The position numbers and the translations under genes are program-made. From Myxococcaceae bacterium (lineage in GTDB: Bacteria; Myxococcota; Myxococcia; Myxococcales; Myxococcaceae): a stretch of 64,000 nt of DNA. The DNA lies in the NCBI GenBank assembly GCA_019694595.1, contig JAIBBQ010000002.1:1-64000 (forward strand), read 5' to 3'. This document shows positions 50,639 through 63,970 of the stretch, one piece after another. Position 1 is the stretch's first letter, and each line of letters begins with the position of its first letter. The notes beneath the pieces were generated by a model. It was given only the letters and a program-made list of their open reading frames with translations, made no database searches and was not told the DNA's origin.

Positions 50639-51058
50639 TTACAGCGCCTGCTCGCTGCGGTGGACGATGCGGGTCATCACCGGCAGCTTCGCCGCCGCCA
50701 GCTTGAACGCGCCGACCGCGAGCTCCTTGGTCATGCCGTCCATCTCGTAGAGCACGCGGCCGGGCTTCACCACCGCCACGTAGTACTCCACGTTGCCCTT
50801 GCCGGTACCCATGCGGGTCTCGGCCGCCTTCTTGGTGATCGGCTTGTCGGGGAACACGCGGATCCAGATCTTGCCGCCGCGCTTGATCTTGCGGCTCATC
50901 GCGATACGCGCCGCTTCGATCTGGCGCGAGGTGAGCCAACCCGGCTGGGTCGTGATCAGGCCGAACTCGCCGAACGACAGCGAGCTGCCCCGGTACGCCT
51001 TCCCCGGCATGCGGCCCTTGTGCATCTTGCGGAACTTGGTTCGTGCAGGCTGCAGCAT
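50639..51058 (-). CDS. rplP: Ribosomal protein L16
   Basis: 139 aa; [20 protein letters not shown] at the start and [20 protein letters not shown] with [19 protein letters not shown]16 acts near the peptidyl transferase centre. Confidence 0.97.
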
Positions 51059-51094
51059 TGGTGTTCCTCGTTCAGGAGTTCAGGAAGGCCCGCT

Positions 51095-51748
51095 TCAGCG
51101 GAGCTCCTTCACCCCCGCCTTTCCCTTGAGCACTTCACCGCGGCAGATCCACACCTTGCAGCCGATCTTGCCGTAGGTGGTCTTCGCCTCGGAGAAGCCG
51201 TAGTCGATGTCCGCGCGCAGCGTGTGCAACGGAACGCGGCCTTCGCGGTACCACTCGTAGCGCGCCATTTCCGCGCCGCCGAGGCGGCCGGAGCAGGCGA
51301 TGCGAATGCCCTTGGCGCCGAACTTCATCGCGGTCTGGATCGCCTTCTTCATCGCGCGACGGAACGCGATGCGGCGCTCGAGCTGCTGGGTCACGTTCTC
51401 CGCGACCAGCTGCGCGTCGATCTCCGCCTTGCGGACCTCGACGATGTTCAGGAAGACCTCGTTCTTGGTGTACTTCTGGAGGTCCTTCTTCACGGTCTCG
51501 ATGCCGCTGCCCCGCTTGCCGATCACGATGCCCGGCCGCGCGGTGTGCACGTTGACCTTCACCTTGTTCGCCGCGCGCTCGATCTCGACCTTCGAGACGC
51601 CCGCGTGGCCCAGGCTCTTCTTCACGAAGTCCCGGATCTTGATGTCCTCGTGCAACCACTGGGCGTAGTTCTTCTCCTCGAACCACTTGGAGTCCCAGCT
51701 GCGAATGACACCGAGGCGGAAGCCAATCGGATGAACTTTCTGACCCAT
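51095..51748 (-). CDS. rpsC: Ribosomal protein S3
   Basis: 217 aa; KH domain with [19 protein letters not shown], and the C-terminal [21 protein letters not shown]3 lines the mRNA entry tunnel. Stop codon in the loop of a small CCGC/GCGG hairpin. Confidence 0.97.
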
Positions 51749-51757
51749 GGTTTTCCT

Positions 51758-52111
51758 TTAGGCCTTCTTCTTGCCGGCGTCGGTGAGGACGACGTGGAGG
51801 TGGCTGGTCTTCTTGTTGATCCGGGTGGCACGGCCCATCGCGCGGGGCATGTAGCGCCGCGAGGTGGGGCCCTGGTCCACCGAGATGTGCTTCACGACGA
51901 GCGCGTCGATGTCGACGGAGCCCTTCGACAGGTCGGTGGCGTTGGCCACCGCGCTCTCGATGAGCTTCTGCACCGGGCGCGCCGCGGCGCGCTTGGTGAA
52001 CCGCAGGATGTTGATGGCGGCGCCGACCGGCTTGCCGCGCACCAGCGCCGCCACGTCCGAGACCTTCCGGGGGGCCATGCGCAGGAACCTCAGGTGTGCA
52101 GTCGATTCCAT
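51758..52111 (-). CDS. rplV: Ribosomal protein L22
   Basis: 117 aa from ATG 52111 (MESTAHLRFLRMAPRKVSDV), preferred over the upstream ATG at 52117 because GAGAGG sits 6 nt before it but directly against 52117. Tail GRATRINKKTSHLHVVLTDA. L22 lines the exit tunnel. Confidence 0.95.
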   Translation of the reverse strand: MESTAHLRFLRMAPRKVSDVAALVRGKPVGAAINILRFTKRAAARPVQKLIESAVANATDLSKGSVDIDALVVKHISVDQGPTSRRYMPRAMGRATRINKKTSHLHVVLTDAGKKKA

Positions 52112-52121
52112 GGTCATCCTC

Positions 52122-52424
52122 TCACTTCGCCGGAGGCGGCTTGGCGCCGGCCGGAGCGGCCTTCTTCTCGGCCGAGTGGCCGACGAAGGTGCGGGTGGGG
52201 CTGAACTCGCCGAGCTTGTGGCCGACCATGTTCTCGGTCACGAACACCGGCACGAACTTGCGGCCGTTGTGCACCGCGAAGGTGTGGCCCACGAACTCCG
52301 GCAGCACCATGGAGCGGCGCGACCAGGTCTTGATGACCGCCTTCTTGTTGCTCTTCTGCATGCCCTCAATCTTCTTGAGGAGCGACTTGTCGACGAAAGG
52401 GCCCTTGTAGATCGATCGTGCCAT
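52122..52424 (-). CDS. rpsS: Ribosomal protein S19
   Basis: 100 aa; [20 protein letters not shown], then [20 protein letters not shown] and [21 protein letters not shown] short Ala/Pro tail follows. S19 contacts S13 and the A-site tRNA. Confidence 0.97.
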
Positions 52425-52433
52425 GGCGGTTCC

Positions 52434-53279
52434 TTACTGGCTCCGGACGCCCTGACGGCGCCCAGTGATGATGAACTTGTCGGTGCGCTTGTTGGTGCGC
52501 GTGGTGAGGCCCTTGGTCTTCTTGCCCCAGGGCGAGACGGGGTGCGGGTTACCCTGGCCCGACTTGCCTTCGCCGCCACCGTGCGGGTGGTCGACCGGGT
52601 TCATCGCCAGACCGCGGACGGTCGGGCGAATGCCCAGCCAGCGGCTCTTGCCCGCCTTGCCGATGCGGATGATCTCGTGGTCGATGTTGCCCAGCTGGCC
52701 AACCGTCGCGCGGCAGGAGATCAGCACCTTGCGGACGGCGCCCGACGGCAGACGGATCTGCGCGTAGTCGCCTTCCTTCGCCATCAGCTGGCCCCAGCTG
52801 CCCGCGGAGCGGATCATCTGCGAGCCGCGGCCCGGCTTGAGCTCCACGTTGTGGATCACCGTGCCGACCGGGATGTTCTGGAGCGGCAGCTGGTTGCCAG
52901 GCCGGATGTCGGCGGTGGCGCCGGCGAACAGCGTGTCGCCCACCACCAGGCCGACCGGCGCCAGGATGTAGCGCTTGTCGCCGTCCTTGTAGTGCAGCAG
53001 CGCGAGGTTCGCGGTGCGGTTCGGGTCGTACTCCACCGCCACGACCTTGGCCGGCACGCCGTCCTTGTCGCGACGCTTGAAGTCGATCACGCGGAAGCGG
53101 CGCTTGTGGCCGCCACCCTGGTGACGCCGGGTGATGTGGCCATCGCTGTTGCGGCCGCCCGAGCGACGCATCGCCTGGGTGAGCGCCTTCTCCGGCTTGT
53201 CCTTGGTGATCTCGGCGAAGTCCGAGACCGTCATCAGGCGCCGCGCGGCACTCGTCGGCTTGTAGCTCTTGACGCCCAT
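52434..53279 (-). CDS. rplB: Ribosomal protein L2
   Basis: 281 aa; conserved [20 protein letters not shown] and the catalytic-site region [21 protein letters not shown]2 supports subunit joining and the peptidyl transferase centre. Confidence 0.97.
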
Positions 53280-53280
53280 G

Positions 53281-53574
53281 TCAGACCGTCCCTCCTTCGA
53301 ACAACTCGATCTTGTCGCCTTCCTTCAAGGTGACGAAGGCCTTCTTCCAGTTCGGGCGCTTGCCGATCGACTGACCGACGCGCTTCACCTTGCCGCGCAC
53401 CACGGAGGTGCGCACGTCGAGCACGGTGACCTTGAACAGCTGGGTCACGGCGCGCGCGACGTCGAGCTTGTTGGCAGCCCGGTCGACCACGAAGCTGTAC
53501 TGGCGCTGCTTCTCACGGAGCTGATCGAGCTTCTCGGTGATCAGCGGACCCTTGATGACCTCGGTAGCGAGCAT
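53281..53574 (-). CDS. rplW: Ribosomal protein L23
   Basis: 97 aa; [20 protein letters not shown] and [21 protein letters not shown]23 is the docking site for trigger factor and SRP at the exit. Starts 6 nt after... the rplD stop side of the operon is 9 nt away, the rplB start 1 nt away. Confidence 0.96.
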
Positions 53575-53583
53575 GACGTTCCT

Positions 53584-54222
53584 CTACGCCTTCGGGCCCT
53601 TGACCCGGGTGAGCGCCTCGTTGATGGCCTGGGCGGCCGCCTTGGTCAGCACCAGCGTGGGCCGACGCAGCACCGACTCCACGTTGATGCCCTCGGGGGG
53701 CAGCACGTCGAACTTCGCCAGGTTGCGCACCGCGCGGTGCACCTTGGCGTTGGCCTTGGTGTCGACCACGAGCGCCGCGGTGAGCTTCAGGTTCTTGGTC
53801 AGCGCCGACGCCGCCTGCTTCGTCTTCTCGAAGCCCAGGGTGTCGACGATGAGCAGCTTCTTTTCCTTCGCGCGCAGCGACAGCGCCACCGCGACGGCCG
53901 CGCGGCGAACCTGGCGGGGCGGGCGGTAGAAGTAGTCGCGGGGCTTGGGGCCCATGGCCTTGCCGCCGCCCACCCAGTGGGACGCGCGGGTCGAACCCTG
54001 GCGAGCGCGGCCGGTGCCCTTCTGCTTCCAGGGCTTCTTGCCGCCGCCCGAGACGAGCGAGCTGTTCTTGACCATCACCGTGCCGCGGCGGCGGTTGATC
54101 TGCTGCATCTTCGCAGCTTCGTAGATCAGGTTCTGGTTCGGCTCGGCCGCGAACACCTCGTCCGCGAGCTCGATCTCCGAGACCTTCTTCAGATTCATGT
54201 CGACGACGTCGAACTTGGCCAT
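53584..54222 (-). CDS. rplD: Ribosomal protein L4
   Basis: 212 aa; tunnel-loop region KKPWKQKGTGRARQGSTRAS and GGGKAMGPKPRDYFYRPPRQ are diagnostic of L4. It begins 10 nt after the rpsJ stop: the gene for L3 (rplC), which normally lies between them, is absent. The junction carries its own Shine-Dalgarno-like GGGAACC. Confidence 0.97.
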   Translation of the reverse strand: MAKFDVVDMNLKKVSEIELADEVFAAEPNQNLIYEAAKMQQINRRRGTVMVKNSSLVSGGGKKPWKQKGTGRARQGSTRASHWVGGGKAMGPKPRDYFYRPPRQVRRAAVAVALSLRAKEKKLLIVDTLGFEKTKQAASALTKNLKLTAALVVDTKANAKVHRAVRNLAKFDVLPPEGINVESVLRRPTLVLTKAAAQAINEALTRVKGPKA

Positions 54223-54232
54223 GGCGGTTCCC

Positions 54233-54541
54233 TTAGCTCTTGATCTCGACGTCGACGCCGGCCGAGAGGTCGAGCTTCATCAGCGCGTCGAGCGTCTGCT
54301 GAGTGGGCTCGAGAATGTCCAGGAGCCGCTTGTGGGTCCGGATCTCGAACTGCTCGCGGCTCTTCTTGTCCACGTGCGGGCTGCGGAGCACCGTGAACCG
54401 GTTGATGCGCGTGGGGAGCGGAATCGGGCCGGCGACCCGGGCACCGGTACGGCGCGCCGTTTCGACGATCTCGCCCGCGCTCTGGTCCAGGAGCTTCGAG
54501 TCGTATGCCTTGAGCCGAATGCGAATCTTCTGCGTAGCCAT
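54233..54541 (-). CDS. rpsJ: Ribosomal protein S10
   Basis: 102 aa; [40 protein letters not shown] and [21 protein letters not shown]10 is also NusE in antitermination. First gene of the S10 operon; a candidate promoter lies about 100 bp upstream. Confidence 0.97.
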
Positions 54542-54744: not shown

Positions 54745-54777
54745 AGACCCCGGGGGCCTCATCGGCCACCGGGGTCT
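54745..54777 (-). terminator. Hairpin downstream of tuf
   Basis: Arms AGACCCCGG/CCGGGGTCT (9 bp, perfect) continue through GGCC-type inner pairing. It follows the tuf stop by about 107 nt. The transcribed strand continues TCGCTTCTTGG, so the T-run is weak; it could terminate the tuf transcript or partly separate it from the S10 operon. Confidence 0.55.
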
Positions 54778-54883: not shown

Positions 54884-56074
<1,191 letters not shown>

Positions 56075-58679: not shown

Positions 58680-59144
58680 TCAGGTGTTCTTCGAGTCGAG
58701 CCGCTCCGCGAGCGCGTCGAGGAGTTCGCCAGCCTTGGCGGCATGAGACGCGGTGAGGCTGCCGAGGAGCTCTTCCACCGCCTCCTCGGCGGTGCCCTTG
58801 GTCGGAACGTCGAGCGCGCGGCCCCGCGCGGTGAGCCGAAGCGTGACCCGTCTGCGGTCGGCCGCATCGGAGCGCCTGGTGAGCAGGCGCTTCGCTTCCA
58901 GTCGGCCGAGGGCGGCGGAGATCGTCCCGGGGTCGAGATGCAACAGGCGCGCGAGTTGCCCTGCATTCATGCCGGGGAACGCGCCAACGCACCTCACGAT
59001 GAGGCGCTGCTGGGCGGTGACGCCGATGCGGCGTTCCATGCGGTGCGAGAGCGTCTCGAGCGCATGGTTGAGCCGCCACAGGCGCCGCAGGAAGTCGAGC
59101 GGCGGACTCAGCGGCAAGTTCTCGACTGGCTCCCCTGCCGTCAT
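58680..59144 (-). CDS. MarR-family transcriptional regulator
   Basis: 154 aa. Winged HTH core with MNAGQLARLLHLDPGTISAA, LGRLEAKRLLTRRSDAADRR and RVTLRLTARG (wing). Its start overlaps the otsB stop by 4 nt (ATGA), so it is part of the otsA-otsB operon and probably feeds back on it. A TTG-N6-CAA palindrome upstream of otsA is a likely site. Confidence 0.9.
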   Translation of the reverse strand: MTAGEPVENLPLSPPLDFLRRLWRLNHALETLSHRMERRIGVTAQQRLIVRCVGAFPGMNAGQLARLLHLDPGTISAALGRLEAKRLLTRRSDAADRRRVTLRLTARGRALDVPTKGTAEEAVEELLGSLTASHAAKAGELLDALAERLDSKNT

Positions 59145-59910
59145 TCCCGTGTCTCTCCGACCCTGGCGCCGGCCGCGCGAGCCGCCACCAGGACCTCCAG
59201 CAGCAGATCGATCTCTCGTTGATGGCGGAGATAGTACTCCGCCGACGAGCCCCGTGAGGCCCCGACACGGACCGTCACCAGACGCCCGGGCTGGCGAAGC
59301 TCGAAGACGTCTTCATCGGTCACGTCGTCGCCCACGTACAAGGCAGCCTCGGCGCGACTGGCGTCACGGAGCGCGAGCAGCGCGTCACCTTTGTGGGGGG
59401 CTCCGAAAGGCAACACGTTGATCACGAACTTTCCGGGCACGATCCGGGTCGGCCCAGGGAGCACCTGGAGCGCCTGCAGGATCTGCGACCTGGCCTGATT
59501 CGGTCGCCTCGCGCGGCGATAGTGAAGCGAGATCGAACTTCCCTTGTCCTCGAGTTCGACGCCCTGGACGGTCGCGAGTCCGCGCTCGAGCGACGTCACC
59601 GCCCGCGCCATCGTCGATCGGTATGGCGCGTCGGAGCCATCGACCTCGACGCCGTGGTTTCCGACCACGTACTTCACCCTCGCCTGCCCGAGCCGACCAG
59701 CGACGTCTCGCCGGCCGCGGCCAGAGATCACCGCGCACGGATACAGCCGGCACACCTGTTCCAGGAGTCGCGCCGTCCGCTCCCGCATTCTGGCTGCTCC
59801 CGGCTCGGCCACGATCGGCGCGAGGGTGCCATCGAAGTCGAAGGCGAGGAGCACCTTGCGCGCCGCCACCTCGCGCAGCCACTGCAGGTTGCGCCTCGAC
59901 AGGAGCCTCT

Positions 59911-59914
<4 letters not shown>
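59141..59914 (-). CDS. otsB: Trehalose-6-phosphate phosphatase
   Basis: 257 aa from the GTG at 59914, overlapping the otsA stop by 4 nt (GTGA). HAD-type motifs: LLAFDFDGTLAPIV, AVISGRGRRD, VVGNHGVEVD and LYVGDDVTDEDVFE. Removes phosphate from trehalose 6-phosphate, the OtsA product. Confidence 0.95.
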
Positions 59915-62145
<2,231 letters not shown>

Positions 62146-62164
62146 GATCGGCTACCACGCATTA

Positions 62165-62178
62165 CTTGGAGTTCCAAG
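62165..62178. promoter_or_regulatory. Candidate MarR-type operator between otsA and the GH15 gene
   Basis: CTTGGAGTTCCAAG is a perfect inverted repeat of two 6 bp arms around GT. The inner TTGGA-GT-TCCAA has the TTG...CAA layout with 5 bp half-sites and a 2 bp gap, like classic MarR boxes. It lies 20 bp from the otsA start and 23 bp from the GH15 start, so binding could block both. Confidence 0.5.
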
Positions 62179-62200
62179 CATCTCCTGGTACACGCCCCCC

Positions 62201-63970
62201 ATGAGCCTCGCGGACCTCGGACTGATCGGTAACTGTCAGATCGCCGCGCACGTGCACCGTGGTGGCGACGTGGTCTGGTGTTGCCTGCCCCGCTTCGATT
62301 CGCCACCCGTCTTCGGCGCGCTCCTCGATGAGCGCGCAGGTGGCCGCTTCAGCATCGGTCCGGCCGACGGCCGCCTCGGCACCCAGCGCTACCTTCCCAA
62401 CACCAACGTGCTCGAGACGCGCTTCGAGACCCCAGAAGGGGCTTTCAGGGTCATCGACTACGCGCCGCGCTTCATCCAGCACGGTCGGACCTTTCGGCCC
62501 ACCAAGCTGATACGCACCCTGGAGCCACTCTCGGGCACCCCCCGCGTCCGGGTGGAGTGCGACCCCGTGCTCGGCTGGTCCAAGACCAGGCCGACGCGCG
62601 ACCAGGGGTCTCACCACGTCACGTTTCACGGTTACGAGTCAGAGCTCAGGCTGACGACCAATGCTCCGCTCGCGTACCTCAACGGAGCGCCGTTCGCGCT
62701 CACCGGGACCAGACACTTCGTCCTCGCGTGGGGCGCTCCGGTGGAAGAGGCGCTCGAGCCGTTGTGTGACCGGTTCCTCGCGGAGACCTGTCGCTACTGG
62801 ACCACGTGGGTGAAGCACTGCGACGTCCCCACGACGTACCAGGAAGAGGTGATCCGATCGGCGCTGGCGCTCAAGCTCCACTGCTACGAGGACACCGGTG
62901 CCATCGTCGCTTCACTGACCACTTCGATCCCAGAAGCTCCGGGCTCGGGACGAACGTGGGACTACCGCTACTGCTGGCTGCGCGACTCCTTCTATGCGCT
63001 GGCGGCCTTCCGGCACCTGGGCCACTTCGAGGAGCGTGAGCAATTTCTCGGCTACCTGCTCAACATCGTCGCCAACAGCCCCGAGCTCACGCTCGCCCCG
63101 CTCTACCGGATCGATGGCCGCAGCGACCTCTCGGAGGAGATCCTGCCCGGCTGGCCGGGGTACTTGGGCGAAGGGCCCGTTCGAATCGGGAACGGAGCCG
63201 CCACCCACATCCAGAACGACGTCTTCGGAGAGCTGGTCCTGGCACTTGCGCCGTTGTTCCTCGACGCCCGCTTCCGGGAGCAAGCCAGCCCCGAAGTCCT
63301 CGAACTCCTGATTCGCCTGGCTCGGAGGGCCGTGTCGTTGTCGGGACAACCCGACGCCAGCATCTGGGAATACCGCACCGAGGGGCGCGCCAGGACCTTC
63401 AGCACCCTGATGTGCTGGGCCGCCGCCGATCGTGTCGCCCAGGTGGCCGCGACGCACCGCCCTTCGGTGGCCGCCGAGTTCACCGCGGCGGCAGCGAAGA
63501 TCCGCGGCGAGATCCTCTCTCGGGCCACGTCCCCCACGCACGGCGGACTGGTGGCCGACTACGGAGGCGTCGAGGTCGATGCCGCCCTGCTGCAGGCAGT
63601 GACCCTCAGGTTCTTCGGCCCCGGCGACCCCAGGGCCTTGGTGACCATCGACGCGGTTCGCCGTGACCTCGAGCATCACGGCTGGCTCAAGCGGTACCGG
63701 AGCGACGATGGGTTCGGGCCGCCGAAGGTCGCCTTCACGCTCTGTACGTTCTGGTTGGTCGAGGCCCTGGCCAGAGTCGGCCGGGAAGAAGAGGCACGGA
63801 AGCTGCTCGAGCGCGTCGGCGAGCTCAAGGCTCCACTCGGTCTCTATGCGGAAGACGTCGAGCCGACGACCGGAGTGATGTGGGGGAACTACCCTCAGGC
63901 GTACTCCCACGTCGGCCTGATCACGGCCGCCTTTGCCGCTGCTCCCCGTTGGTCCGAGTTCGGGCCATGA
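62201..63970 (+). CDS. Glycoside hydrolase family 15-type protein (glucoamylase/trehalase-like)
   Basis: 589 aa. N-terminal beta-sandwich (about 1-220; LGLIGNCQIAAHVHRGGDVV, PRFDSPPVFGALL) and an (alpha/alpha)6 catalytic domain (about 250-580) with RTWDYRYCWLRDSFYALAAF, GWPGYLGEGPVRIGN and SIWEYRTEG. GH15 proteins cleave alpha-linked glucosides and some bacterial members are trehalases. It is divergent from otsA, so a role in trehalose or glycogen turnover is likely. Start ATG at 62201 is the first that clears the otsA start. Confidence 0.9.
   Translation: MSLADLGLIGNCQIAAHVHRGGDVVWCCLPRFDSPPVFGALLDERAGGRFSIGPADGRLGTQRYLPNTNVLETRFETPEGAFRVIDYAPRFIQHGRTFRPTKLIRTLEPLSGTPRVRVECDPVLGWSKTRPTRDQGSHHVTFHGYESELRLTTNAPLAYLNGAPFALTGTRHFVLAWGAPVEEALEPLCDRFLAETCRYWTTWVKHCDVPTTYQEEVIRSALALKLHCYEDTGAIVASLTTSIPEAPGSGRTWDYRYCWLRDSFYALAAFRHLGHFEEREQFLGYLLNIVANSPELTLAPLYRIDGRSDLSEEILPGWPGYLGEGPVRIGNGAATHIQNDVFGELVLALAPLFLDARFREQASPEVLELLIRLARRAVSLSGQPDASIWEYRTEGRARTFSTLMCWAAADRVAQVAATHRPSVAAEFTAAAAKIRGEILSRATSPTHGGLVADYGGVEVDAALLQAVTLRFFGPGDPRALVTIDAVRRDLEHHGWLKRYRSDDGFGPPKVAFTLCTFWLVEALARVGREEEARKLLERVGELKAPLGLYAEDVEPTTGVMWGNYPQAYSHVGLITAAFAAAPRWSEFGP

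Follow-up and report, generated by a model that had tools for sequence, protein, structure and literature searches.

Does the absence of rplC, the gene for ribosomal protein L3, from the S10 operon of this Myxococcaceae genome reflect a genuine relocation, or a fault in the assembly? In the textbook S10 operon of E. coli and B. subtilis, the genes are ordered rpsJ-rplC-rplD-rplW-rplB-rpsS-rplV-rpsC-rplP, and rpsJ-rplC-rplD is one of the most conserved gene orders in bacteria. In the stretch of DNA analysed here (the window, 64,000 nt, bases 1-64000 of contig C59), every gene of this series other than rplC is present in the usual order and strand, and NCBIfam matches confirm the canonical series from rplD to rplP. 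The difference lies between rpsJ and rplD, where a 10-nt spacer stands in place of rplC (Table 1), which is located elsewhere. The original prediction, made from the letters of the window, had described just this junction, and the NCBIfam calls agree with it; no rplC is found anywhere in the 64,000 nt. It had also proposed a ribosome binding site at this point, and we do find a Shine-Dalgarno-like AAGGGAA, formed by the end of rpsJ together with the spacer and overlapping the rpsJ stop codon (TAA, 54233-54235, minus strand), ahead of the rplD start codon (ATG at 54222). The inverted repeat between tuf and rpsJ is a possible tuf terminator and, since this terminator-like element lies upstream of rpsJ, transcription probably starts anew at rpsJ.

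Table 1 Features of the S10 region, the relocated rplC and recurrent neighbours of rplC in other genomes
Feature	Position	Strand	Evidence or remark
tuf (EF-Tu)	54884-56074	-	TIGR00485, 754.8 bits; neighbour upstream of rpsJ
14-bp inverted repeat between tuf and rpsJ	54745-54777	-	Repeat search; putative function
rpsJ (uS10)	54233-54541	-	TIGR01049, 157.7 bits (NCBIfam); first S10-operon gene here
rpsJ-rplD spacer, usual place of rplC	54223-54232	-	10 nt, GGGAACCGCC on the coding strand
rplD (uL4)	53584-54222	-	TIGR03953, 211.6 bits (NCBIfam); directly after rpsJ
rplW (uL23)	53281-53574	-	NF004366, 122.6 bits
rplB (uL2)	52434-53279	-	TIGR01171, 419.5 bits
rpsS-rplV-rpsC-rplP	50639-52424	-	NCBIfam matches; rest of the S10 operon, normal order
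rplC (L3)	C59:104735-105406	-	TIGR03625 (L3_bact), 223 aa
Small protein after rplC	L107:5948-6334, L108:3882-4172, L110:4354-4662		L107 copy: no Pfam match
RlmE/RrmJ-like gene	L210:2073-2675, L104:7734-8438, L106:3717-4154		

The original prediction had suggested searching the rest of the genome for rplC and comparing the junction in close relatives. The genome (7.28 Mb, 394 contigs, 99% complete) contains a single copy of the gene, recovered as one match both with Pfam and with a protein query, and this copy lies on the same contig as the S10 operon, 50 kb upstream of rpsJ and outside the window. It is a full-length match to bacterial uL3, scoring 266.5 bits against TIGR03625, for which the cut-off is 142.9, and spanning positions 1-202 of the 202 in the model. 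An intergenic gap of 154 nt separates it from the stop of the upstream gene, a Shine-Dalgarno-like GGAAAGG precedes its ATG, and a candidate lipoprotein start follows 15 nt past its stop. rplC presumably has a promoter of its own; a scan around the gene gave no match to a sigma-70-like promoter, and no known leader RNA was matched in Rfam at either rplC or rpsJ. A repeat search at the junction and around the new rplC site found no mobile-element scar, merely short chance-like repeats. The function of L3 itself is most likely unaltered and confined to its ordinary ribosomal role.

The same junction is found well beyond this genome. Among 60 relatives sampled from the same family and order, rpsJ directly adjoins rplD in all 55 in which both genes were found, and rplC is located elsewhere in 56 of the 60 genomes. 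Across the phylum, 20 of 20 loci representing 20 families likewise have rplD directly after rpsJ, and the junction also occurs in single-contig genomes (for example G022, G045, G054 and G057). A scan of 156 Myxococcota genomes, each at least 90% complete, recovered rplC in 151 and rpsJ in 153, with no adjacent rplC/rpsJ pair among those listed; the five genomes in which rplC was not found are probably explained by draft gaps. In the 48 genomes carrying both genes on one contig, the distance between them, computed from positions transcribed by hand, ranges from 4,873 nt to 1.8 Mb with a median of 71 kb, and stays below 200 kb in 42. The missing rplC that the original prediction pointed out is therefore real, but it is not a peculiarity of one genome: it is a state shared across the phylum. 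Such a phylum-wide exception provides a simple gene-order marker for Myxococcota, and serves as a natural experiment on whether L3 needs to share a transcript with the other early 50S proteins. It also means that pipelines which extract S10 as one uninterrupted block will overlook L3 in Myxococcota. In a separate observation, the draft genome G116 has two partial rplC matches (C78:20845-21237 and C73:9646-10059, on L260 and L261), most likely the result of a contig break within the gene.

In a tree of 109 L3 sequences, 35 of the 36 from Myxococcota fall into a single clade (SH-aLRT 90), and in the L4 tree all 28 do so (SH-aLRT 88). The exception in the L3 tree is the sequence of G144, which attaches to the alphaproteobacteria with weak support (85). 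With this one weakly placed exception, the L3 gene tree fits vertical descent, and neither it nor the L4 tree points to a foreign origin of L3; the simplest reading is that the native rplC was moved, and not replaced. We consider it highly likely that a single intrachromosomal relocation, at or before the base of Myxococcota, took rplC out of the S10 operon, and that the gene has been inherited ectopically throughout the phylum. One ancient move is suggested by the intact copy 50 kb away together with the phylum-wide rpsJ-rplD junction and the grouping of the L3 sequences, and we infer that the event was both single and local. In such a scenario, rplC would have exited the operon at or before the base of the phylum, and the S10 cluster would have closed, with rplD translated from the ribosome binding site overlapping the rpsJ stop. 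The relocated gene would use a ribosome binding site of its own, and presumably its own promoter, and would have been passed on at ectopic, usually S10-linked positions. That linkage may simply have persisted through inertia, or selection may favour a similar gene dosage close to the origin. Because the named loci do not include the sister phyla Bdellovibrionota and Desulfobacterota, the event may also predate Myxococcota.

Other histories could be imagined. The original prediction had weighed misassembly against a move and favoured the latter, a preference that the data uphold: although the genome is a 394-contig draft, in which an artefact might take rplC out of the operon, the gene is intact on the very contig that carries the operon, and the junction recurs in dozens of independent assemblies, one-contig genomes included. 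The junction is therefore not due to chance either. Since it is conserved in closed genomes, we reject misassembly, which is hardly conceivable. One could also speculate that the native rplC was lost and that a horizontally acquired L3 gene at another site took its place, an idea to which the variation in rplC gene context between classes and the separate grouping of the G144 protein lend some appeal. However, the Myxococcota sequences of L3, like those of L4, make up essentially a single clade, and in 42 of 48 genomes rplC lies less than 200 kb from S10, which is more readily explained by a local move than by foreign DNA inserted at random; replacement finds no support in the L3 and L4 trees, and we regard it as very unlikely. 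The variable neighbourhoods, with tonB-like and str-operon genes in two families (f24 and f28), rlmE-like genes at some loci and nfs/glt-like genes at others, could alternatively be taken as traces of several independent exits from the operon within Myxococcota. Yet a gene that is once outside an operon is free to drift, the canonical order is kept in no sampled genome of the phylum, and a single loss needs fewer steps, which makes repeated exits very unlikely.

The relocation is unusual among the named bacterial loci sampled. A search with an L3 N-terminus pattern gave at least 80 such loci with rplC, drawn from about 20 phyla, Bdellovibrionota and Desulfobacterota not being among them. Among the matches listed, rplC is flanked by both rpsJ and rplD in 62 of 80 named loci and has one of the two beside it in 14, mostly where the ends of the locus are cut. 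Neither neighbour is present in the remaining four among the matches listed: a 416-bp fragment, Anaeromyxobacter soli (L205, itself a member of Myxococcota), L210, which is labelled Proteobacteria yet falls within the Myxococcota L3 clade, and L140 from Planctomycetota. In the last of these (L140:1540-2526), rplC is likewise displaced from the S10 operon, but there it precedes rpsT, in a lineage unrelated to Myxococcota, and its displacement is an independent event. Displacement of rplC is common to Myxococcota and rare among the matches listed from these roughly 20 phyla, which do not include the nearest sister phyla.

The surroundings of the relocated gene differ between lineages. Two low-GC lineages carry rplC near the beginning of the str operon (rpsL-rpsG), with the gene oriented away from the operon and behind a tonB-like gene. 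At L266, rplC and a tonB-like gene, both on the minus strand, are followed on the opposite strand by rpsL, rpsG, fusA, rpsJ and rplD, and the same pair of tonB-like gene and rplC adjoins rpsL-rpsG at L269. This str-operon site may be near the place where rplC originally landed. TPR, FHA-domain and tonB-like genes also flank the str-near rplC (L266:663-5034 and L267:3461-10270); these domain types occur in the Glt/Nfs machinery as well, GltG combining FHA with TonB. In Myxococcia, and in two families that do not belong to this class (f11 and f17), a conserved OMP1-OMP2-TPR set, encoding barrel-like proteins of the outer membrane and a TPR protein, follows rplC on the same strand, separated from it by two further genes in several families. 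In Myxococcia and some families outside the class, a block of nfsABC/gltABC-like envelope genes thus lies just downstream of rplC. The association of rplC with nfs/glt-like genes is conserved and striking, and rplC may have become linked to envelope machinery before Myxococcia arose. It is conceivable, though in our view unlikely, that the new site is functional, coupling L3 supply or growth state to the gliding and spore-coat machinery, or sheltering the nfsABC/gltABC-like block from loss.

For Myxococcus xanthus, these neighbours can be related to a characterized locus. In the Myxococcus-like genome G140, rplC is followed by a 323-bp gap and then by genes of 294, 442 and 520 aa. The nfs locus of M. 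xanthus comprises MXAN_3371-3378, in which the sporulation genes nfsA, nfsB and nfsC encode 294, 442 and 512 aa, with the nfsA promoter inside the 323 bp that precede the gene (PMC2875238). From this correspondence with G140, Mxan_3370, just upstream of nfsA, is very probably rplC. Mxan_3370 and nfsA are reported to have differing transcription patterns (PMC2875238), and the M. xanthus nfs genes are therefore not simply read from rplC. The glt genes, which act in gliding, are paralogous to the nfs genes (PMC3858216). The window genome differs from M. xanthus in having two extra genes, a Cys-rich gene and a vWA-like lipoprotein gene as judged by eye, between rplC and its nfs-like block.

Ribosomal operons are known to lose single genes (PMC8046335). 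In those cases, as here, one gene exits and the order of the operon is otherwise intact, but they concern two other clades and rplC is unnamed in the main text, whereas here a whole phylum is marked. No open-access paper reporting a phylum-wide displacement of rplC was found, the subscription literature being mostly beyond the search; public annotations should show the arrangement.

Some further features of these regions were also noted. A conserved protein of about 100-130 aa is encoded directly after rplC in families f19, f20 and f22 (Table 1). In some members outside Myxococcia, what looks by eye like an RlmE/RrmJ-like methyltransferase gene adjoins rplC or lies near it. In the window itself, genes resembling trehalose-6-phosphate phosphatase and synthase, going by sequence appearance, adjoin a glucoamylase-like gene at 59141-63970.
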